A stretch of 64,000 nucleotides of DNA, taken from the NCBI GenBank assembly GCA_014379585.1, contig JACMLN010000106.1:1-64000 (forward strand). Reading direction: 5' to 3'. This document shows positions 4,609 to 34,841 of this stretch, piece after piece. The notes beneath the pieces are model-generated. The model made no database searches, had not been told where the DNA came from, and worked only from the letters and a program-made list of their open reading frames with translations. The stretch's first letter is position 1, and each line of letters begins with the position of its first letter. The DNA comes from Gloeobacterales cyanobacterium ES-bin-313. Its GTDB lineage: Bacteria > Cyanobacteriota > Cyanobacteriia > Gloeobacterales > Gloeobacteraceae. The position numbers were made by a program, and so were the translations under genes.

Positions 4609-6864
4609 CTAGGGACTAAGGGCGATCGCATTCAAGGAGGCAAGGAGTTCATCGATGCTATTGAACCTTTGATCGGGGCTTTTGGCGATGCAGCGCATGA
4701 TGATTGCTTCCACTTCAAGAGAAAGGTTTTCACACCCTGCCTGAGCACTGATGGGCTTTGCTTCGCGCAGAACGTGGCCTTCATACCAGAGAGCGGGGGC
4801 TGAGTAGGCTTCTTCTTGATCGATACCAAATGGATTATTGCCGCTCAACATTTCATAAAAGATGATCCCCAAACTGTAAATATCGGCGCGGTGATCTAAG
4901 TTGCGTTGCCCGCGCCACTGTTCAGGGGCAGCGTAGCGAGAAGTGCCAACAAAGCCACCCATGGTTAAATCTGTGCGATCCTCTCCGTCTTCTTCCGTTT
5001 GCGAAACAGTTTTGGCAATGCCAAAGTCGAGAATTTTCACCAGTTCCCCAATTCCAATTGGGACAAGATAGATATTGTCAGGTTTAAGGTCTCGGTGTAC
5101 AACTTTAACCAGTTCTTTATTACCACTACTGCTGACCATAGTGATCCCTTGATGAGCAAGGCTTAGACCTTCGCAGACCTGTTTCATTATCCCAATGGAG
5201 CGGTTTAGCGAGAGGCACTTTTCCTTTTTGAGTACTTGGCCAAGACTTTTACCCTGGAGCAATTCCATCACGTAGAAGGGAAAGCCTTCTACAGTCGTGC
5301 CATAGTCGTTGACTTGAACAATATTGTTGCTGCGCAGAGCCGCTGAAACTTTTACTTCCTTTTCGAAGCGCTTTTGCAGACCGAGGCTTTCGGCATTGAC
5401 ATTAGCGCGCAGAATTTTTAAGGCAACATCGCGCCCGATCGTCCGATCCAGGGCAATGTAGACCTCACCCATTCCCCCTTCTCCAAGACGACTGTTGATT
5501 AAATAGCGATCCCCTAGGCCCACGGTTCGCCCAAGCCAGTTCACCCTCGCGAAGGGATTGGCGGTGACTCCATCGACGACGGTTCCTGAACGACTGTTGG
5601 GGCCAAAAGCTTCATTGCGTGTGGGGTTTTCGTTCGTGATGACCGGGACAGGCACTTCGATGATCACTGGTGCCGGATTGCCCCGTAGGGTTCTGACTGC
5701 CACTGCACTAAGCAGTACCCCTGCAATGGTCGGAACGAGGGGCACCCAGCCTTCTTTCGTAAACAGCAAGTAACAAAAACCAATAATCAGCACAATGGCA
5801 ATTGCTGCGCTCAGTGCTGAAGCCAGAGGTGATTTTGTCCACCAAACGAGCGCACCGACGGCAACACTCCAGAGGACAATCCAGCCCCACTCCATCGGCT
5901 CGCCCCAGTACCAGATCATCGCGCGGTTATTGAGACCAGCGCTCAAAAATTGGCTAATGGCGTGGGCATGAAAGATCACACCAGCAACTTGGGTCGGACT
6001 ATAGGGTGCATTGAACACATCGTTGACGCTGTCCGCTGTGTAGCCGACGAGTACGATTTTATCTTTGATCCATTCGGGATTGACTTTGCCCGCGAGGATC
6101 TCGGCAGCAGAGACTTCCCTGGCTGGGGCAGGCAGCCGAAAGTTGATCAACATGCGATAACTTTGATCAAATAATTTTTGGTTTTGATAGGCCCCAGCAT
6201 TGCTGTCTAATTGCTTCAGCGTGACTTTACCCAATTGCATATCGCCACTTGCAGTTCGCTGTGGAGAGACTTTTTCGCGATCAAGATAACTTAAAGCGAG
6301 CAAGAAAGAAAACGAATAGATCGTCTTTTCGTCTTTACCGTCCTTCAAAGTAGTATACAAATAACTTTGACGAATCACCCGGTCATCATCGAGGGGCATA
6401 TCACTGTAACCAACCCGACCTTCGTCTACACTCATGCCGGGAGGTGGGGGCGTCTCGTAGCCACCACTGGCATTGATCTTGGCAATGCCAACGATCCGAC
6501 CATCGTTCTTCAACAATGCCGCTAATTCTCCCTCTGGCTTATCCCGGTAAATATCAATGCCAATGGATTGTGGCTGGTGGGAACCAATTTTGGTCAGAAG
6601 CTTGGCAAGCAGAGGGTCGGGCAACGGATATTTGTAGTTCCGAATATCCTCCTCGGTGATCTTGACCACTAAGATCCGCTCATCGAGGGGTTCAGCCGGA
6701 CGAGATTTCAAAAGCGCATCGTAGGCAGTCAACTCAAGCGGTTGAAAAAGCCCTAAAAAGCGCAGAACGAGGATCAAGGCAGCAGCGGCCAAGCTTGCTA
6801 GCAGAGCCAATGGCAGGCTATTCAGGTTCAGGGCTGAGGATTTCGTTGAAGATTGAGCAGTCAT
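4609..6864 (-). CDS. CHASE2-domain serine/threonine protein kinase
   Basis: A membrane sensor kinase. An N-terminal transmembrane helix leads into an extracytoplasmic CHASE2 sensor (~35-320: AYDALLKSRP, GIDIYRD), followed by about three transmembrane helices (~325-400) and a cytoplasmic Hanks-type kinase (~470-745). Kinase motifs are complete: glycine loop GEGGMGEV, ALKIL lysine, HRDLKPDN, DFG, and GTSRYAAPEQ for the activation segment/APE, so it should be active. ATG 6864 fits the usual short cytoplasmic start; 6912 would add 16 residues. Neither start has a clear Shine-Dalgarno sequence. The LysM/DUF928 gene follows in the same operon. A PP2C phosphatase that could oppose it lies at 31057-32772. 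Confidence 0.92.
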   Translation of the reverse strand: MTAQSSTKSSALNLNSLPLALLASLAAAALILVLRFLGLFQPLELTAYDALLKSRPAEPLDERILVVKITEEDIRNYKYPLPDPLLAKLLTKIGSHQPQSIGIDIYRDKPEGELAALLKNDGRIVGIAKINASGGYETPPPPGMSVDEGRVGYSDMPLDDDRVIRQSYLYTTLKDGKDEKTIYSFSFLLALSYLDREKVSPQRTASGDMQLGKVTLKQLDSNAGAYQNQKLFDQSYRMLINFRLPAPAREVSAAEILAGKVNPEWIKDKIVLVGYTADSVNDVFNAPYSPTQVAGVIFHAHAISQFLSAGLNNRAMIWYWGEPMEWGWIVLWSVAVGALVWWTKSPLASALSAAIAIVLIIGFCYLLFTKEGWVPLVPTIAGVLLSAVAVRTLRGNPAPVIIEVPVPVITNENPTRNEAFGPNSRSGTVVDGVTANPFARVNWLGRTVGLGDRYLINSRLGEGGMGEVYIALDRTIGRDVALKILRANVNAESLGLQKRFEKEVKVSAALRSNNIVQVNDYGTTVEGFPFYVMELLQGKSLGQVLKKEKCLSLNRSIGIMKQVCEGLSLAHQGITMVSSSGNKELVKVVHRDLKPDNIYLVPIGIGELVKILDFGIAKTVSQTEEDGEDRTDLTMGGFVGTSRYAAPEQWRGQRNLDHRADIYSLGIIFYEMLSGNNPFGIDQEEAYSAPALWYEGHVLREAKPISAQAGCENLSLEVEAIIMRCIAKSPDQRFNSIDELLASLNAIALSP

Positions 6865-6996
6865 GTAGGAAAGGATTTTGGTGCAAGGAGCCTGCCGAGT
6901 AAGCAGTGACATTGCTAGACTACGTCGGCATCAGGATCCTGCCATGGAATCTACACAAAAATCTGTCCTTGGATTGCCTCTCGACACGCCTCCCTG

Positions 6997-7371
6997 TTAG
7001 CGTCCATTCAGTTTCTCAACCACAGGCTTCGCCCATTTGAGGGCTGTTTCATAGTCGATCATCCCCCAGTACAGTGACGAGGAGACACTGCGGGCATAGC
7101 TTTCCGGGCTGAGTTTCAAACCTTGACGGGCGAGTTCCCACATCTCCCGCTCGTAGCCTCTGCGCTCGATCCGCCACCGAAAATTCAAATCGAAAACATA
7201 TAAGACATAAAAAGGTAGATGACCAACAGCGCGCTGTTGACGGTGATGCACTTGCTCATGGGCAAGGACAGAGCGCTTGAGGTCTTCTCGCCAATGGGCA
7301 AAATTTTGGGGCACAAAAACGAAAGGATCTAGCGCCAAACAAAAATGAAGCGGCCAGGGTACGAGTTGCAT
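6997..7371 (-). CDS. Small HExxH-motif protein, putative metallopeptidase-like
   Basis: A 124-residue protein with LAHEQVHHRQQ at ~37-47, which contains the zinc-binding HExxH motif followed by further histidine and glutamines, as in many small phage and bacterial proteins of the HExVHxxQQ type. An aromatic, partly hydrophobic stretch (~50-65) and a helical C-terminus with conserved-looking YE and W residues follow. It starts 2 bp after the DUF3288 gene and is the last gene of the glgC-akr-DUF3288 run. Peptidase activity is only inferred from the motif. Confidence 0.7.
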   Translation of the reverse strand: MQLVPWPLHFCLALDPFVFVPQNFAHWREDLKRSVLAHEQVHHRQQRAVGHLPFYVLYVFDLNFRWRIERRGYEREMWELARQGLKLSPESYARSVSSSLYWGMIDYETALKWAKPVVEKLNGR

Positions 7372-7373
7372 GA

Positions 7374-7646
7374 CTAGAGCCAGTCCTCTTGGGTGGAACT
7401 CCCAGGGCGATAGACAGGGCGCTGATGATGAATTTCGCGGGTACGTTCAAAAAGAAGCTCTTTCGTCAGCTTCCAGTTGCGCAGGACGATGGCCAGATCG
7501 CGTTTAATATCGTCAGCACCCGGAAATCCCTCGTAGCGAATTAGCAGGCGTGCCAATTCGCACAGATGGTAGTCATCTGGCTCTGATTGAAGCAATTCGC
7601 TGAGCGCCGGACGATCTTTGCCGTACTGGGGGTGGGTCTGTTGCAT
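7374..7646 (-). CDS. DUF3288 family protein
   Basis: A 90-residue cytosolic protein matching the cyanobacterial DUF3288 family: HPQYGKDRP start, DYHLCELARLLIRYEGFPGA core, LRNWKLTKELLFERTREIH end. Its function is unknown. It lies between the aldo/keto reductase (3-bp gap) and the HExxH gene (2-bp gap), so translational coupling is likely. Confidence 0.88.
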   Translation of the reverse strand: MQQTHPQYGKDRPALSELLQSEPDDYHLCELARLLIRYEGFPGADDIKRDLAIVLRNWKLTKELLFERTREIHHQRPVYRPGSSTQEDWL

Positions 7647-13345: not shown

Positions 13346-15079
13346 ATGATCGAGCATGACATTGTAATCGTTGGTGGTGGACTGGCTGGGTCGAGGGCTG
13401 CGGTGGAGATCGCCCGCACTGATCCACGTTTGAAAGTGGCAATTGTTTCAAAAGTGCATCCGATTCGAAGCCATTCCGTTGCTGCTCAAGGCGGAATCGC
13501 TGCGGCTCTTCAAAATGTCGATCCCAACGACGACTGGCTAACCCATGCCTTCGACACCGTCAAAGGCTCGGATTATTTGGCAGATCAAAATGCCGTTGAA
13601 GTTCTGACCAAGCAGGCACCCTCGGTGATCATCGACCTTGAACACATGGGCGTGCTCTTTTCGCGACTGCCCGATGGTCGGATTGCCCAGCGCCCTTTCG
13701 GGGGGCATACCAATCGTCGCACCTGCTACGCTGCCGATAAGACCGGGCACGCCATGCTCCACGAACTGGTCAGCCGCCTTTTCCAGTACAAAGTGCCGAT
13801 CTACGAGGAATGGTACGTCCTCAAGTTAATCGTCGAAGAAGGGGAAGCACGGGGACTGGTGATCTATCACATCCCGACTGCGCGGATCGAAGTGATTCGC
13901 GCCAAAGCGATCTTGTTTTCCACAGGTGGCTATGGACGCGCCTACAACACGACTTCCAACGACTACGCCTCGACGGGGGATGGCCTGTGTCTCGCTGCCA
14001 TGGCTGGGATGCCTCTCCAGGACATGGAGTTTGTCCAATTTCATCCTACCGGCCTCTACCCCGTGGGAGTCTTGATCTCTGAGGCGGTGCGTGGGGAAGG
14101 CGCATACCTTGTCAACGGTGAAGGAGAGCGCTTCATGGAGCACTACGCCCCCAGCAAATTAGAACTCGCTCCCCGTGACATCACAAGTCGTGCCATCGAT
14201 ACAGAAATTCGTTTTGGTCGCGGCATTCAGGGCGGAAGGTACATCCATCTCGATGTGAGACATCTGGGCAAGCAGCGGATTATGGAGCGCATTCCGTTTG
14301 CCCACGACGAAGCAGTGCGTCATCTGGGCATCGATATTGTCTACGAACCAATGCCTGTACGTCCCACAGTGCATTATTCTATGGGCGGGATTCCAACGAA
14401 TGTCGATTGCCAGGTGCTCAGTGCCCACAACCAAACAGTGCCTGGATTTTTTGCCGCTGGGGAAGCGGCCTGTGCCTCCGTCCATGGAGCGAATCGTCTC
14501 GGCAGCAATTCTTTGCTCGAATGCGTTGTTTTCGGCCAGCGCGCTGGCGCTTCCCTTGTTCGCCATGTTCAAGACCGCAAACTGCCGAGCGTGAATGAGC
14601 AGCACTACCTTGACGAAGCGAAGGGATTGCTGGCTGGGTTGCTCGATCAAAGTGGCCCACTACGCATCGATCAGTTGCGGCGCGGATTTCAGGACACCCT
14701 CACCGACCACTGTTCCCTTTTTCGCGAAGAAGCCACGCTCAAAGCGGGTCTTGAACAGATCGCAAATCTGAAGGCTAAGTACAGCCAGATTCGTCTGGAT
14801 GACCGAGGTACCTGTTACAACACAGAGATCATCGAAGCCTTGGAACTGCGCAGCTTGATCGCTGTCGGTGAAATGATTGCCACCAGCGCCCTTGCCCGCG
14901 AAGAGTCCCGTGGTGCCCATTCCCGCACCGACTTCCCTGATCGCAACGACGAAAAATTCTTAAAGCATACCCTCGCCTATCAGACACCCGAAGGCGTGCG
15001 CATCGACTACCGTCCCGTCGATCTCAGTCTGCAAGCGCGGGATCCTGAACGCTTTACTCCCCAAGCCCGTAAGTACTGA
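13346..15079 (+). CDS. sdhA: Succinate dehydrogenase/fumarate reductase flavoprotein subunit
   Basis: A 577-residue FAD subunit. The N-terminal dinucleotide motif [10 protein letters not shown], the [12 protein letters not shown] flavin-attachment region, [19 protein letters not shown], the HPTG loop, SEAVRGEGA and PTVHYSMGG mark SdhA/FrdA. It oxidises succinate and passes electrons to an iron-sulfur subunit (SdhB), which is not in this window, as is common in cyanobacteria where sdh genes are scattered. ATG 13346 matches family starts ([11 protein letters not shown]); ATG 13322 is an alternative. The stop overlaps the start of the cyanophycinase gene by one base. Confidence 0.93.
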
Positions 15080-15849
15080 TGAACCGTCTGTTTGTTCTGC
15101 TTGTTTTCCTGCTCTGTCTAGAAAACTCAGCCGTTTGGGCGGAACCCACTCATCTCGTATTAATCGGTGGTGGCCCTAGACCAGCCGCCGCTCTGAAGCA
15201 ATTTGTCAGTTGGGCGGGAGGAGCAAAGGCAAAAATTCTGGTGATTGCTTGGGCCAGCGAAGAACCCCAGGCAAGCTACGACGCATTGGCCAAAGATTTC
15301 AGCCCGTTTGCACCTGCCAGTATCGCCATGGCTCCATCGCCACCAGTTGCTATTGAAAAATTCTTAGATCAGCTTCAATGTGCAACGGGCGTTTTCTTCA
15401 GTGGCGGCGATCAACGCAGAATCATGGATGTTTTGAAAAATGCCAAACTCAAAGCCGCCCTTCAAAATCTCTATCGCAAAGGCGTCGTTTTCGGTGGCAC
15501 CAGTGCAGGAACAGCGATCATGTCCTGTCAGATGATGACTGGAGACGGAGACTTCACCGTGATCGATGGCCGCAAAGTGGATACCCGTGAAGGGCTTTGC
15601 CTTCTGCCGGGAACGATCTTGGATCAACATTTTCTCAAACGCCAGCGAGAAAATCGGCTCTTTGGATTGGTATTGGAGTCCCCTACATTACTCGGCATCG
15701 GCATCGACGAAGGCACCGCACTCCTTGTCACCGATAATCGCACCGCCGAAGTGCAAGGGGAAAGCCAAGTGATGACCGTGAGCGCTTCGGGAAAGTCTAC
15801 TTTAAACGTGAAATTGCTCAAGGCCAATGAATTGTTTACCCTGCCTTGA
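15079..15849 (+). CDS. Secreted cyanophycinase-like peptidase (family S51)
   Basis: A 256-residue protein with a signal peptide (~1-21, ending VWA). The fold is class-I-amidotransferase-like: VLIGGGPRP, FFSGGDQRR, the nucleophile elbow GGTSAGTAIM with the catalytic Ser, and the ILDQHF segment typical of cyanophycinases, which cleave the Asp-Arg polymer cyanophycin to dipeptides. The signal peptide sets it apart from the intracellular CphB and implies an exported enzyme. Its start overlaps the sdhA stop, so expression is probably coupled. Substrate is inferred from the family. Confidence 0.88.
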   Translation: MNRLFVLLVFLLCLENSAVWAEPTHLVLIGGGPRPAAALKQFVSWAGGAKAKILVIAWASEEPQASYDALAKDFSPFAPASIAMAPSPPVAIEKFLDQLQCATGVFFSGGDQRRIMDVLKNAKLKAALQNLYRKGVVFGGTSAGTAIMSCQMMTGDGDFTVIDGRKVDTREGLCLLPGTILDQHFLKRQRENRLFGLVLESPTLLGIGIDEGTALLVTDNRTAEVQGESQVMTVSASGKSTLNVKLLKANELFTLP

Positions 15850-19710: not shown

Positions 19711-20838
19711 ATGGCGATCTTTGCTATTGGCTTGATGAGCGGTACCTCTTTAGACGGGATCGATGGGGCACTGATCCAGATTTCTGGAACACCAGATTCC
19801 CCAAGCATTCAAACGCTTAAAACCCTTGCCTGTCCCTATCCTGAGTCTTTGCGCCAGCGATTATTAGTCGTCGCGGAAGGTACACCAATCCCTGTAGCTG
19901 AAATCAGTGCCCTCCACCGGGATGTTGCTTTGGCCTTCTCTGACTCTGCCTTGGAACTGCTCGTCGGTTTCCCAGAAGCTTGCACTGTGATCGGTTCCCA
20001 CGGCCAGACTGTCCACCATCAACCACCAGGAAAGGAAATCGGTCATACCTTTCAGTTGGGGCACGGGGCGATTATCGCTGCCAAAACAGGGATCACGACG
20101 GTCAGCGATTTTCGTAGCCGCGATATGGCTTACGGGGGGCAAGGTGCGCCACTGGTGCCTTTTTTCGATGCACTGCTCCTGCGGGATCCTCACCATCCGC
20201 GCTGCATCCAAAATCTCGGTGGAATCGGCAACGTCACTTTTCTAGGTTCTGAAAAAGTGCTCGCCTTCGATACAGGGCCAGCCAATTTGCTCATCGATGG
20301 GGCGATGCGATTGCTTTACGATCAGCCCTTCGACCAAGGTGGACAGATCGCTCTAAGCGGCACAGTCGATTCTGAGCTTTTAGAACGTTGGCTGTTGGAT
20401 CCTTACTTTACGAAACACCCCCCCAAATCGACGGGTCGGGAATATTTTGGTTATGCCAGGGCGGAAATCTTCTGTCAGGAAGCGGCACACTTAACGCCAG
20501 CCGCTCGAATTGCGACATTGAGCGAACTGACGGTTCAGTCCTTGGTCAGGGCTTACGAAGATTTCCTGCCGGTCATGCCCAAAGAAATTTTTCTCTCCGG
20601 TGGTGGTGCCCACAACCAGTATTTTATTCAGCGCCTAACCGCGTTGCTTGCCCCTGCCAAGGTGGATACAACCGCATCCCTCGGTGTGGATGTCGATTTC
20701 AAAGAAGCGATCGCCTTCGCTGTCCTCGGTTGGTTGCGGCTTCACAATCGCCCGACCAATTTCCCCAGTGCGACGGGGGCATCGAAGCATGTGCTGCTTG
20801 GCGATGTGCATAGTGATAGTTTGGATCCACATTCCTAG
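19711..20838 (+). CDS. anmK: Anhydro-N-acetylmuramic acid kinase
   Basis: A 375-residue sugar kinase of the ASKHA fold: GLMSGTSLDGIDGAL at the N-terminus, SHGQTVHHQP, TVSDFRSRDMAYGGQGAPLVP, NLGGIGNVTFLG, AFDTGPANLLID and FLSGGGAHN. It converts anhydro-MurNAc from cell-wall turnover into MurNAc-6-phosphate with ATP. Length and motifs are complete. It follows the YbjN gene by 2 bp and precedes RNase D by 9 bp, so a shared transcript is likely. Confidence 0.96.
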   Translation: MAIFAIGLMSGTSLDGIDGALIQISGTPDSPSIQTLKTLACPYPESLRQRLLVVAEGTPIPVAEISALHRDVALAFSDSALELLVGFPEACTVIGSHGQTVHHQPPGKEIGHTFQLGHGAIIAAKTGITTVSDFRSRDMAYGGQGAPLVPFFDALLLRDPHHPRCIQNLGGIGNVTFLGSEKVLAFDTGPANLLIDGAMRLLYDQPFDQGGQIALSGTVDSELLERWLLDPYFTKHPPKSTGREYFGYARAEIFCQEAAHLTPAARIATLSELTVQSLVRAYEDFLPVMPKEIFLSGGGAHNQYFIQRLTALLAPAKVDTTASLGVDVDFKEAIAFAVLGWLRLHNRPTNFPSATGASKHVLLGDVHSDSLDPHS

Positions 20839-20847
20839 CCCACTCCC

Positions 20848-21423
20848 ATGGCCCGACACGAAGTTCCTTATGTCCTGATTACTGAAACCAAAGAATTAGA
20901 AGATCTCGTTGTCCAGTGGCAATCTGCCCCTGTCCTTGCCGTGGATACAGAAACTGCCCACTGGAATCAGATGCGCAGCGGTAAAAGTAGCATTTCCCTG
21001 CTGCAAATCTGGGATGGTCAGAGTGAGATCATCTGGGTGATCGATTGTTTCGCCACCGATATTAGTCTGTTTATTCAGAAGACGATGCGCAGTTGGGAAA
21101 CTACAAAACTGATTCACAATGCTCCCTACGATCTGGCCTACTTGGGTGGAGCGGCACAAGCAGGCGCTGTGGTCTGCACTTTGCAGATGGCGCGCCGCAT
21201 TCCGACCCATCTGCGCAACGGGCTGGCACGTAATTCCCTCAAAGCCCTCAGCGAACATTTTTTGGATGTCGAACTGGACAAAAGCTATCAAGCGAGCAAT
21301 TGGGCACTGCGCCCCCTCAGCAAATACCAATTGGCCTACGCTGCCCTCGACCCTTGGGCAACCTATCGCGTTTGGGAAGAAATGCGTGCCCTGAGCGAGC
21401 CGGAGGATGAAATTGTTCTATGA
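20848..21423 (+). CDS. Ribonuclease D-type 3'-5' exonuclease
   Basis: A 191-residue DnaQ-like DEDDy exonuclease: motif I VDTET, motif II IHNAPYDLAYLGG and motif III YAALDPWATYRVW with the Tyr and Asp. It lacks the HRDC domain of E. coli RNase D, as is usual for cyanobacterial short versions. It probably trims tRNA or other structured RNA 3' ends. Its TGA overlaps the ATG of the chaperonin (ATGA), indicating translational coupling. Confidence 0.9.
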   Translation: MARHEVPYVLITETKELEDLVVQWQSAPVLAVDTETAHWNQMRSGKSSISLLQIWDGQSEIIWVIDCFATDISLFIQKTMRSWETTKLIHNAPYDLAYLGGAAQAGAVVCTLQMARRIPTHLRNGLARNSLKALSEHFLDVELDKSYQASNWALRPLSKYQLAYAALDPWATYRVWEEMRALSEPEDEIVL

Positions 21424-22928
21424 GCGATAATGCCTACCTCAAAGTTCTTCGCAACAATATTGCCGCTGTCCGCATGATCGTCGAAACCGTTGCCCCGACC
21501 CTTGGCCCCAAAGGTCTAGATGTCTTGCTTACAGATGAAGCGGGCCGGATCACGATCACCAACGATGGAGTAGAAATTCTGCGCCAACTCGATGCCCAGC
21601 ACCCAGCTGCCCGCCTGGTTGCCCAAGCTGCCGATGCGCAAGATCGCGCTGTCGGCGACGGCACGACGACTGCAACTGTTTTGGCTGGTGCGCTCCTTGA
21701 TGCTGCTTTGGTCAGTATCGAGCAAGGTGTCTCGATTAACCCCTTACTCACTGGGATGCGCCAAGGGATTCAGTGTGGGGTGGAAGCCCTCAAGCAACAG
21801 GCGCAAACCATTGTTAGCTTTGACGATCCGTTATTGCTTCAAGTTACCGAAGTGGCTGCACGGGGCGACAAAGCTTTGGCCCAAGTTGTCTGGGAGGCTG
21901 CACGGCGTATCGGTGTTGAACGCCTCAGCACGGGATCTTTGCGCCTTGGGGACTTAGTGCTAGCTGAAACTGGTGGGGTCCACCACTGGATCGATGGGGT
22001 CTTGATTGGCAAGCGACCGCTTTTTTTGCCCGCCGATGGCTGGCTGCGCACAGGAAAAGTCCTCGTCCTCGGCGATGCTCTGGAGCCAGAAGGACTCGAT
22101 GCCCAAGCACTCTCGACCGAAGGGGGATTCAACCGCTTCGTCGAAACCCAAAATCGTCTGCGCCAAGAAATTCACCAGTTGGTGCAGTCAGAGGTTGTCC
22201 TAGTGGTCTGCGAAAAGACGATTGCGCCCCTGGCTGAGGAATGTCTAGCTGAGGCGGGTATTCTTGCCCTTCAACGCACCTTAAGCCGCGACACCCAGCG
22301 CATCTGCCAATTTAGTGGTGCGCAAGTGGCACGCCGCTCAATGTTGAGTCAGGATTTTGCCAATTGGCTGGGCAAAGCCGAAGTCAGTTACGAACCGATT
22401 GGCCAGCGCGTGATTCTCAAAGCTGGAGGCGGACAACCCCTGGCGACAATTTTGGTCGGTGCCCACAGTGCCGATGTCGCAGCGGAACAGGAGCGTGTTG
22501 CCATCGATGCCTGCGGCGCGCTTCAGGCTGCATTGAAGGGTGGGGTGGTGACAGGTGGGGGAGTCGCCGAATTCGTCTGTGCCCAAGTGATTCAAGGGCA
22601 GCTTGCCCACACTGAGGGGCTAACCCGCTACGGAATGCAGGTGGTGGCTATTGCGTTGCGCCGACCGATCGAGCAGATCGTGGCCAACAGTGGCTACTCA
22701 GCTCTCGAAAAAGTGGCCAATCTCGAATCTACACACCAACGCACCCAGAATCAGCACCTGGGCATCGATTGCGAAAGTGGAGAGATTGCTAATCTTTGGA
22801 CTATGGGCATCGTCGATCCGCTGACGGTCAAGACCAATGCCCTGCAGGCTGCTGGGGAGATTGCTGAACGCATTCTACGGATTCAAACCGTGGTTCGCCG
22901 TCGAGAATTTCCGCCGGAGGGAGTTTGA
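21420..22928 (+). CDS. Thermosome-like (group III type) chaperonin
   Basis: A 502-residue Cpn60-superfamily protein that follows group II/III, not GroEL, sequence: TLGPKGLDVLLTD (not GRNVVLDK), ITITNDGVEIL, HPAARLV before GDGTTTATVLAG (~79-90), then DALEPEGLDAQAL in the apical region, GGVVTGGGVAEF, RRPIEQIVANSG and GIVDPLTVKTNALQAAGEIAERIL at the C-terminus. It lacks the GGM tail of GroEL, and no groES lies nearby. Bacterial group III chaperonins (first known from Carboxydothermus) form two-ring, GroES-independent folding cages with a built-in lid. The gene overlaps RNase D by 4 bp at the end of the DUF427-anmK run. The presence of this type in a cyanobacterium is unusual. Confidence 0.88.
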   Translation: MSDNAYLKVLRNNIAAVRMIVETVAPTLGPKGLDVLLTDEAGRITITNDGVEILRQLDAQHPAARLVAQAADAQDRAVGDGTTTATVLAGALLDAALVSIEQGVSINPLLTGMRQGIQCGVEALKQQAQTIVSFDDPLLLQVTEVAARGDKALAQVVWEAARRIGVERLSTGSLRLGDLVLAETGGVHHWIDGVLIGKRPLFLPADGWLRTGKVLVLGDALEPEGLDAQALSTEGGFNRFVETQNRLRQEIHQLVQSEVVLVVCEKTIAPLAEECLAEAGILALQRTLSRDTQRICQFSGAQVARRSMLSQDFANWLGKAEVSYEPIGQRVILKAGGGQPLATILVGAHSADVAAEQERVAIDACGALQAALKGGVVTGGGVAEFVCAQVIQGQLAHTEGLTRYGMQVVAIALRRPIEQIVANSGYSALEKVANLESTHQRTQNQHLGIDCESGEIANLWTMGIVDPLTVKTNALQAAGEIAERILRIQTVVRRREFPPEGV

Positions 22929-22990: not shown

Positions 22991-23392
22991 ATGCTCAGAG
23001 TAAGACTATTCGGTGCAGCAGTGGTTCTGACAATTTGTGCTTGCTTTCCAACGATTGCTGGGGCGCAACAACCTGCAACTTTAGTGAAATTGGGCGAACT
23101 GCGGGTCGGCAACAAAACACCCTACCCAGTACGCGTTGTTGTGACTAAGGGAGATGGCAGTCTCGAAGGTGCTTTCTGGGACTTTGCTCCCGGCGAAGGG
23201 GGGAGCGAGGGCATCCGCCTCACCCTGCCCGATAAGCCAGACAAGCCAATGCTCCTTGCTGAAGGGGATGTCCTCACCATTTTCGCTTTAGACGGATCCC
23301 GCCGCTACTGGGGGCCAAATATTTTAGGCAAGACCGTCGCTCCATTCTGGGATGGGAAGCGCAAGATCTGGAGTACGGTGCTCCGCCCCTAA
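22991..23392 (+). CDS. Secreted protein of unknown function
   Basis: A 133-residue protein from ATG 22991 with AGGA close upstream; a longer frame from 22925 would overlap the chaperonin stop. Residues 1-~26 are a signal peptide (ending AGA). The mature part is a compact beta-rich domain: LGELRVGNKTPYPVRVVVTK, ALWDF-like FWDFAPGEGG, VLTIFALDGSRRYWGP and a Trp-rich end. I do not recognise the family. Stop codons interleave with those of convergent clpS (23389-23392). Confidence 0.75.
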   Translation: MLRVRLFGAAVVLTICACFPTIAGAQQPATLVKLGELRVGNKTPYPVRVVVTKGDGSLEGAFWDFAPGEGGSEGIRLTLPDKPDKPMLLAEGDVLTIFALDGSRRYWGPNILGKTVAPFWDGKRKIWSTVLRP

Positions 23393-32772: not shown

Positions 32773-32990
32773 TTCCACCTTAGATTGACGAAGGACGCTT
32801 CCAGTCTTTCATCGTACTTGCTCAAAAGAACGCTTTAGTTTCGACAATAGCCCTAGTCTTGTATTCCTGACAACAGTGTATTACCCGCTACAGGAAAATT
32901 GCTCAAAAGATTGCGATTTGCTGAAGGCAAACGCTTCAAGAGCAAACGCAACGAGCGCCATAATGAAGGTTGGGAACTGATGAGGCGGCA

Positions 32991-34841
32991 ATGGGCAAAG
33001 TAATCGGAATTGATTTAGGAACAACGAATAGCTTGGTGGCCTGGATGAACAAAGATGGCCCTCAGATCGTTCCTGACGAGCAAGGGATTGGCCTGCTGCC
33101 TTCAATTGTTGGCTTTGCTGAGGGAAAGCCAGTGGTTGGCCTTGCTGCACGCAACGGTGCCACCTCTGCGGCTCAGACGTTTTTTTCAGTGAAGCGCTTC
33201 ATGGGCAAAGCCCTCAGCGATTTTGATGCTGCCGAATTGGCTCGCCTGCCTTACGCCATCGACGGAGATAGCCGTTCAGTGCGCTTCCCTGTGGGCAGTA
33301 CGAACTACACCCCCGTTCAGATTTCGGCCATGATCTTGGCCACCCTCAAAAAACGGGCAGAGCGTTTCTTAGGCGAATTCATCTTAAAAGACGCAGTCAT
33401 CACCGTTCCTGCCTACTTCAACGATGCCCAGCGCCAAGCCACCCGCGACGCAGGAGAAATGGCTGGACTCGACGTTTTGCGGATCGTCAACGAACCCACT
33501 GCTGCGGCTCTCGCCTACGGACTCGACAAGCGCAACCAGGGAATCATCGCCGTCTACGACTTGGGTGGTGGCACCTTCGACATTTCGATCCTCCGGCTTG
33601 AAAATGGGGTCTTTGAAGTGCTCGCGACTGCTGGAGACAACCACCTCGGCGGCGACAACATCGACGACCGCCTCACCGCGCTCCTGCTCACTGAGATCCA
33701 AGAAACCCACGGTTTCGACCTCAGTACAGACCGAGAATTTCTCGTCAAGATCCGCCGCATTGCCGAACAAGCCAAAAAAGATCTCTCCTACGCGGAAGCC
33801 ACCCGCCTACTTTTGGAACTGCCCGATGGCAAGCGCCTCGACCAGATCCTCACCCGCACAGAATTCGAAAAGATCCTCGAACCCCTCGTCCAACGCACCC
33901 TTGGTCCCAGCCAACAAGCCCTCAAGGATGCTGGTCTCAGTCCCGCCCAGATCGACGAAGTTGTGCTTGTCGGTGGTTCGACCCGGATTCCTCTGGTCAG
34001 AAAAGCGGTTGCCGAACTATTTGGCCGCAAACCCCACGACGAACTCAATCCCGACGAAGTGGTTGCTCTTGGTGCTGCTATTCAAGCTGACATTCTGGCT
34101 GGAGGCACCACAGAGATGCTCCTCCTCGATGTCACCCCGCTGTCTTTAGGACTCGAAACCATGGGTGGTGTCATGGAGCGCCTGATCGACCGCAACGCAA
34201 CGATTCCCTGTCGGGCCAAAGAAACTTTCACCACAGCCGTCGATAACCAGACAGGCATCGATATTCACGTTCTCCAGGGCGAACGCGAACTCGTCAGCGA
34301 CAATCGTTCCCTTGCCCGATTCAAACTTGCTGGCATCCCCCCCATGCCAGCCGGCATGGCCAAGGTCGAGATTATTTTCTTGATCGATGCCGACGGCATT
34401 CTCAATGTCAGTGCCAGCGAATTGCGCTCCGGTGTCGCCACGTCAGTCACCGTCAAACCCAGCTATTTAAGCGACGACGACATTGCCGACATCTTAGATG
34501 CGAGCTTCGAAAATGCCGAAACCGACATTCAGCAGCGCCAACTGATCGAAGCACGGGTCGAAGCCGAACGCCGCTTTCCAAAGGCCGAAGAATTACTCAC
34601 TGAAATGTCCGAAGTTGGCGCACCCGAGACCCTCGAAGCTGCCCAAAAAGCCCTCGAAGCCCTTCGCATAGCCTACACCCAAGAGAATCACCTAGGGATT
34701 CGCGACGCCATCGATGCCCTCGAACTTGCCGCTGAACCCCTCGTTGCCCAACGCATGAACGAAGCCGTTGGAAGCGCTCTACGCAACCGTTCTACCGACG
34801 ACATCCTCGCCAAAGTTGAGCAAGCCCGCCTCCAAGGCTAA
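32991..34841 (+). CDS. Hsp70 chaperone, DnaK/HscA-like
   Basis: A 616-residue Hsp70: GIDLGTTNSLVAW, ITVPAYFNDAQRQATRDAGE, VYDLGGGTFDISIL and VVLVGGSTRIPLVR form the ATPase. The substrate domain contains DVTPLSLGLETMGG and VEIIFLIDADGILNVSASE, then VKPSYLSDDDIADILD and a helical lid starting RVEAERRFPKAEELL, which resembles HscA and other short Hsp70s more than classical DnaK. ATG 32991 is chosen because GAGG precedes it by 5 bp; a longer frame starts at TTG 32970. There is no grpE or dnaJ adjacent. Confidence 0.92.
   Translation: MGKVIGIDLGTTNSLVAWMNKDGPQIVPDEQGIGLLPSIVGFAEGKPVVGLAARNGATSAAQTFFSVKRFMGKALSDFDAAELARLPYAIDGDSRSVRFPVGSTNYTPVQISAMILATLKKRAERFLGEFILKDAVITVPAYFNDAQRQATRDAGEMAGLDVLRIVNEPTAAALAYGLDKRNQGIIAVYDLGGGTFDISILRLENGVFEVLATAGDNHLGGDNIDDRLTALLLTEIQETHGFDLSTDREFLVKIRRIAEQAKKDLSYAEATRLLLELPDGKRLDQILTRTEFEKILEPLVQRTLGPSQQALKDAGLSPAQIDEVVLVGGSTRIPLVRKAVAELFGRKPHDELNPDEVVALGAAIQADILAGGTTEMLLLDVTPLSLGLETMGGVMERLIDRNATIPCRAKETFTTAVDNQTGIDIHVLQGERELVSDNRSLARFKLAGIPPMPAGMAKVEIIFLIDADGILNVSASELRSGVATSVTVKPSYLSDDDIADILDASFENAETDIQQRQLIEARVEAERRFPKAEELLTEMSEVGAPETLEAAQKALEALRIAYTQENHLGIRDAIDALELAAEPLVAQRMNEAVGSALRNRSTDDILAKVEQARLQG

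Follow-up and report, generated by a model that had tools for sequence, protein, structure and literature searches.

The literature mostly treats group III chaperonins as a trait of Firmicutes and has not settled whether they are relics or were transferred from archaea (PMC12696368, PMC5635000). For Ch-CPN, the group III chaperonin of Carboxydothermus hydrogenoformans, open (5x9u) and closed (5x9v) structures are available, and four residues at the tip of its lid (Leu237, Phe243, Tyr246, and Phe253) were reported as strictly conserved across the group (PMC5635000). The same work also records a single group III gene, left unnamed, that lies outside a dnaK operon, and the usual genomic setting is therefore not strictly defining. 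A more recent study used the split between Firmicutes and Cyanobacteria to date its group III ancestor, which suggests that a cyanobacterial sequence was in its set (PMC12696368). A 2017 study singled out Gloeobacter violaceus among cyanobacteria as exceptional, with its groEL genes in two groESL operons and none of them monocistronic; the passage describing this arrangement makes no mention of a third chaperonin (PMC5381637). A third gene is also not mentioned in the retrieved parts of the literature that combine Gloeobacter with chaperonin or GroEL, and a literature search for Gloeobacter with thermosome found no paper.

The window analyzed here (the whole stretch of 64,000 nucleotides) carries a gene for a group III, or bacterial thermosome-like, chaperonin that is not a GroEL. 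The overall reading, held at a probability of about 0.88, is that the gene encodes a group III subunit that likely forms an ATP-driven, self-lidded double ring, that it was present in the ancestor of the Gloeobacterales and probably came from a Bacillota-like donor, and that it is the only GroES-independent chaperonin beside two groESL operons under CIRCE. This reading draws on the integrity of the gene, its placement in trees, a predicted lid, the ATPase residues, and purifying selection, as well as on presence across the order, a position outside the dnaK operon, and the absence of CIRCE. The features of the locus are collected in Table 1.

Table 1. Features of the chaperonin locus and its surroundings, in window coordinates; codon and residue numbers are those of the chaperonin
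Feature	Position	Strand	Remarks
Cyanophycinase-like protein, signal peptide-like start	15079-15849	+	TIGR02069, 158 bits (cut-off 126.6)
anmK (anhydro-N-acetylmuramic acid kinase)	19711..20838	+	First gene of a likely co-directional cluster
3'-5' exonuclease (RNase D-like) domain gene, 191 aa	20848..21423	+	Lone domain; 4-base ATGA overlap with chaperonin start
Group III (thermosome-like) chaperonin gene	21420..22928	+	502 aa plus stop, 53.5 kDa
GDGTTT, codons 79-84, chaperonin nucleotide-binding motif	21654..21671	+	Invariant in 15/15 group III sequences
Arg148, equivalent of Ch-CPN Arg155	21861..21863	+	From alignment; loop shorter than group II nucleotide-sensing loop
Apical lid region, codons 217-257	22068..22190	+	Aligned to Ch-CPN 223-263 (lid limits from PMC5635000)
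Asp363, equivalent of Ch-CPN Asp373 (ATP hydrolysis)	22506..22508	+	From alignment; conserved
Small exported beta-domain protein	22991..23392	+	ORF open from 22925; signal-peptide start probably near 22991
Hsp70 gene, best as HscA (Fe-S assembly chaperone)	32970-34841	+	TIGR01991, 713.6 bits (cut-off 708.55)

The chaperonin reading frame is open, intact, and complete, and the whole protein is a single full-length PF00118 (Cpn60/TCP-1) domain (337 bits). All of the motifs quoted in the earlier note were located in it: TLGPKGLDVLL at residues 27-37, TNDGVEIL at 47-54, HPAARL at 61-66, GDGTTTATVLAG at 79-90, and GIVDPLTVKTNA at 463-474. The note had taken all of them as foreign to GroEL, and this needs trimming. 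The alignment shows TLGPKG and GI(V)DP in GroEL as well, which leaves TNDG, HPAAR, and the apical region as the diagnostic parts. Scores with thermosome models are 241-245 bits (NCBIfam cut-offs 400-671), and the best of them, at 244.6 bits with a cut-off of 400, stays below the threshold for calling a group II protein. GroEL models reach 142-164 bits, with cut-offs of 352-582, and match the first 170 residues. Scores for both families below their curated cut-offs are as expected of a third group. Between relatives, the chaperonin genes have dN/dS values of 0.09-0.25, which indicates purifying selection.

The predicted structure points the same way. An AlphaFold2 model built from an alignment of the 9 members from the order and 6 Bacillota proteins has a pLDDT of 88.4, and it includes a long apical lid helix at residues 234-256 (22119-22187) predicted with a pLDDT of about 90. 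The built-in lid anticipated by the earlier note is thus borne out in the model, whose best Foldseek matches in the PDB are 5x9v and 5x9u (TM 0.89-0.91), with the archaeal Mm-cpn and eukaryotic TRiC ranking below them. By sequence, the best PDB match is the resurrected ancestral group III chaperonin ACIII (9rwq, 468 bits), followed by Ch-CPN (5x9u, 320 bits), with archaeal thermosomes at about 200 bits or less; the Carboxydothermus protein is therefore the closest natural solved structure by sequence and by fold. The PDB entry 9rwq carries the molecule name 'Ancestral Group II Chaperonin (ACII)', while PMC12696368 assigns 9RWQ to ACIII.

Individual residues also follow the group III pattern, in which an arginine (Arg155 of Ch-CPN) replaces the lysine of group II. 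The column of Arg148 holds arginine in all members of the order and in the Bacillota members shown, threonine or serine in archaea, and glycine in GroEL. Members of the order have a six-residue deletion in the alignment at the site of the group II nucleotide-sensing loop, i.e., the loop is absent, and the lid spacing is of the group III type. At the lid tip, Leu231 and Phe237 are kept, while the canonical tyrosine and phenylalanine are replaced in the alignment by Phe240 and Leu247. Members of the other two families retain that pair, which is changed in the Gloeobacteraceae. The lid tip of Aneurinibacillus also deviates, with a tyrosine at the last position.

The distribution of the gene is sharply bounded. 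All nine Gloeobacterales genomes, from 3 families and 6 genera, have one orthologue each, the other eight being 50-69% identical to the protein in the window, and no orthologue at the level of match seen in the order was found in 381 other genomes of the class; the survey of cyanobacteria proposed earlier therefore gives 9/9 within the order and 0/381 outside it. In a phylum sample of 386 genomes the genome of the window was the sole match, in a result whose rows shown all belong to the same class, and non-photosynthetic relatives were perhaps hardly sampled. Among Bacillota, 100 of 300 sampled genomes have a group III chaperonin, with Paenibacillus and Aneurinibacillus among the matches listed in the profile search. 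Group III is thus not limited to thermophilic Firmicutes, from which the earlier note had it mostly described. A profile of the first 77 residues gave at least 80 listed matches, mostly archaea plus Bacillota, and group III members in other bacterial phyla may be hidden behind the archaeal entries among the matches listed. Searching plasmids with the chaperonin protein gave no match at 1e-40, and a single-protein scan of genome contigs with it gave none. In Desulforamulus aquiferis, stops or frameshifts interrupt the group III gene (L099, about 5990-7460) as assembled.

In the trees, the Gloeobacterales and Bacillota proteins come together. In a smaller tree of 28 archaeal, 12 GroEL, 7 group III, and 9 Gloeobacterales sequences, the order and the Bacillota group III proteins form one clade (98/97), with archaea and GroEL each apart. 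A wider tree of 31 group III sequences with a GroEL outgroup, for which the bootstrap had not settled, gives the group III clade 97/97 and places the order among Bacillota sequences on weakly supported branches. The proposed phylogenetic check accordingly came out with the protein outside GroEL, together with Bacillota group III, and apart from archaeal group II. The Gloeobacterales chaperonins themselves form one clade (100/99-100) on a long branch (1.8-2.0 changes per site), and their amino-acid composition is unusual.

How the gene came to be in the order is where an alternative survives best. Instead of being gained in the Gloeobacterales stem, the gene may go back to the common ancestor of the cyanobacteria as a whole, with a loss that preceded the diversification of the thylakoid-bearing lineages. 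All three families of the order that diverged earliest have it, and one ancient presence followed by one loss would suffice. On the other side, there is no trace of it in the 381 other members of the class, and the phylum sample is negative as well, though limited to the one class in the rows shown. The weak nesting in the Bacillota favors gain, yet a position of the order as sister to the Bacillota is not rejected by the approximately unbiased (AU) test (p 0.46), and Bacillota group III is monophyletic in only 9-30% of bootstrap trees. Ancient presence seems unlikely on this evidence, though it deserves to be taken seriously, and gain in the stem of the order is preferred.

The surroundings of the gene differ from those in Bacillota. 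In 7/7 Bacillota loci, with genes recognized by motif and order, the arrangement is hrcA-[group III]-grpE-dnaK-dnaJ (the first gene being HrcA-like). This dnaK-operon setting is absent in Gloeobacterales, where the neighbors differ and the dnaK genes lie far from the chaperonin in the complete genomes of the order. Because the chaperonin lies outside the dnaK operon, the hand-over from DnaK proposed for Bacillota is unsupported by gene order here. In the genome of the window, the nearest Hsp70 gene is 10 kb downstream; linkage to dnaK was considered and rejected, since the complete genomes show no such linkage and the Hsp70 in the window scores as HscA. A match to HscA at E <= 1e-200 was seen in only three of 145 class genomes sampled, all in this order. 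HscA is otherwise known mainly in proteobacteria.

What precedes the chaperonin gene is a lone RNase D-like exonuclease domain, and the overlap with it described in the earlier note is real and four bases long. An RNase D-like exonuclease is also found upstream in the other Gloeobacteraceae loci where that side is covered, with the two gene ends near-contiguous or overlapping, and G001 and G004, two genomes of the Gloeobacteraceae, likewise have anmK on that side. On the 3' side, the gene for a small exported protein directly follows the chaperonin in 9/9 genomes of the order, is tandemly duplicated in the two other families, and overlaps the chaperonin gene by 4 bases in three loci outside the Gloeobacteraceae. 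The exported or membrane-anchored domain has conserved WDF, GD, and RYWGP motifs, with relatives in L133-L139, L145, and L146. It matched no Pfam family, and a PDB search with the predicted beta fold gave nothing significant, the only likeness being a weak one to the pVHL beta domain.

No groES adjoins the chaperonin gene, in agreement with the earlier note, and the normal groESL genes whose presence it had marked for checking occur twice, as groES-groEL operons on contigs C51 and C90. A CIRCE element lies upstream of both operons; none was found in the 64-kb window. The number of groES genes equals that of groEL genes in 9/9 Gloeobacterales genomes (two each, or three in G002, a draft rated 8% contaminated). 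A single groES was found in 42/50 other cyanobacteria, which as a rule appear, from match counts, to have two groEL genes beside it. With every groEL of the order paired with a groES, the group III protein is its only GroES-free chaperonin.

These observations bear on what the protein does. Instead of general folding, its work could be specialized, such as that of a holdase or of a chaperonin serving a particular client, perhaps the neighboring exported protein. The fixed pairing with the exported-protein gene throughout the order, including the short overlaps in the three loci outside the Gloeobacteraceae, would fit such a role, as would the altered lid-tip residues in Gloeobacteraceae and the lack of a CIRCE heat-shock element. 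Against this, the ATPase residues are intact, and many cyanobacteria without group III have the exported family, which means that the chaperonin is not generally needed for it. The family occurs in 31/39 cyanobacterial genomes, mostly with no group III chaperonin nearby, and the idea of the exported protein as a dedicated partner is weakened accordingly. A specialized function is judged improbable, and general, self-lidded folding is retained.

Direct acquisition of a group II thermosome from archaea, independent of Bacillota group III, is much harder to sustain. The TNDG and HPAA motifs and the lid are held in common with archaeal proteins, and the AU test on the smaller tree does not reject archaea and Gloeobacterales as a group (p 0.14). 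However, identity is 36-39% to Bacillota group III versus 28% or less to archaeal structures, the nucleotide-sensing loop is missing, Arg148 and the lid spacing are as in group III, and the group III clade has support of 97-98. An archaeal origin of this kind is very unlikely.

A fast-evolving paralogue of cyanobacterial GroEL (group I) that became thermosome-like by convergence fares worse still. Such a protein would account for the GroEL profile matches over the first 170 residues (142-164 bits), for the 30-35% identity to GroELs over partial stretches, and for an AU test in which GroEL and Gloeobacterales are held together with p 0.23. Yet the thermosome profiles score 80-100 bits higher, the lid insert common to groups II and III and to the window protein is missing in GroEL, both normal groEL genes are present, and the trees place the protein away from GroEL with support of 97-98. 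The apical lid helix and the diagnostic residues of group III make convergence from GroEL highly implausible. In the smaller tree, AU tests of the order outside the combined group II and group III clade give p 0.07-0.23, where both values are for the same split and the difference between the two runs reflects the limits of a constrained search. AU testing does not settle the deeper placements; the diagnostic residues and the identities, as read from the alignments, support group III independently of tree depth.

A contaminating Firmicute or archaeal contig might be suspected in a 198-contig draft, but it is excluded by the same gene and neighbors in the independent one-contig genomes G001 and G004, with the gene also in all nine genomes of the order and its GC and GC3 matching the adjoining genes.

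By analogy with Ch-CPN and ACIII (PMC5635000, PMC12696368), the group III subunits would most likely assemble, as identical copies, into two stacked eight-membered rings. Unfolded protein may be captured at the open apical face, and binding and hydrolysis of ATP in the equatorial domain would then close the chamber by the lid helices of the subunits themselves. With chambers closed in this way, GroES would not be needed. The oligomer, the lid closure, and the folding activity are carried over from Ch-CPN. The gene would have been in the common ancestor of the Gloeobacterales before the order diversified, probably through transfer from a Bacillota-like donor. A more speculative idea, offered tentatively and leaning toward doubt, is that in these thylakoid-less cyanobacteria the self-lidded group III protein fills the GroES-free role that monocistronic GroEL2 has in other cyanobacteria. 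At the base of the phylum, a group III protein would then have taken over from a group I one, with control other than by CIRCE and a fixed genetic link to an exported protein.

The group III kind of chaperonin is already known, and a 2025 paper hints that datasets may already include cyanobacterial members. As far as the consulted papers show, three things are undescribed: the fixation across an order, the different operon, and the presence side by side with two groESL operons where no groEL is GroES-free. An order-wide, single-copy branch unlinked to dnaK in the earliest-diverging cyanobacteria provides a second deep phylum for the question of relic or transfer. The difference in operon also puts to the test the view that group III and DnaK act together. 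The group III gene completes the chaperonin census of Gloeobacter, and since Gloeobacter species can be cultured, the function of the chaperonin is open to study.

Among known systems, Ch-CPN (PMC5635000) is the closest. It shares the three-domain chain of ~500 residues, the built-in lid, the missing nucleotide-sensing loop, and the equivalents of Arg155 and Asp373, and it is the best structural match. It differs at ~35% identity, in two lid-tip residues changed in the Gloeobacterales protein of the window, in the position of the gene here outside the dnaK operon, and in the host, here an oxygenic phototroph of another phylum. The Bacillota group III proteins (Paenibacillus, Aneurinibacillus, Peptococcaceae, and Desulforamulus) share the clade at 36-39% identity, but their genes lie between an HrcA-like gene and grpE-dnaK-dnaJ (7/7) and the one here does not. 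The archaeal group II thermosome has the overall fold, lid, and TNDG/HPAA motifs in common, and is set apart by having a nucleotide-sensing loop, a lid spacing that is longer, and T/S where the protein here has Arg148. Cyanobacterial GroEL1 and GroEL2 (group I) have a homologous ATPase domain; unlike the protein described here, GroEL lacks a lid and pairs with GroES, and the groES-groEL operons of this genome are located elsewhere, with CIRCE.
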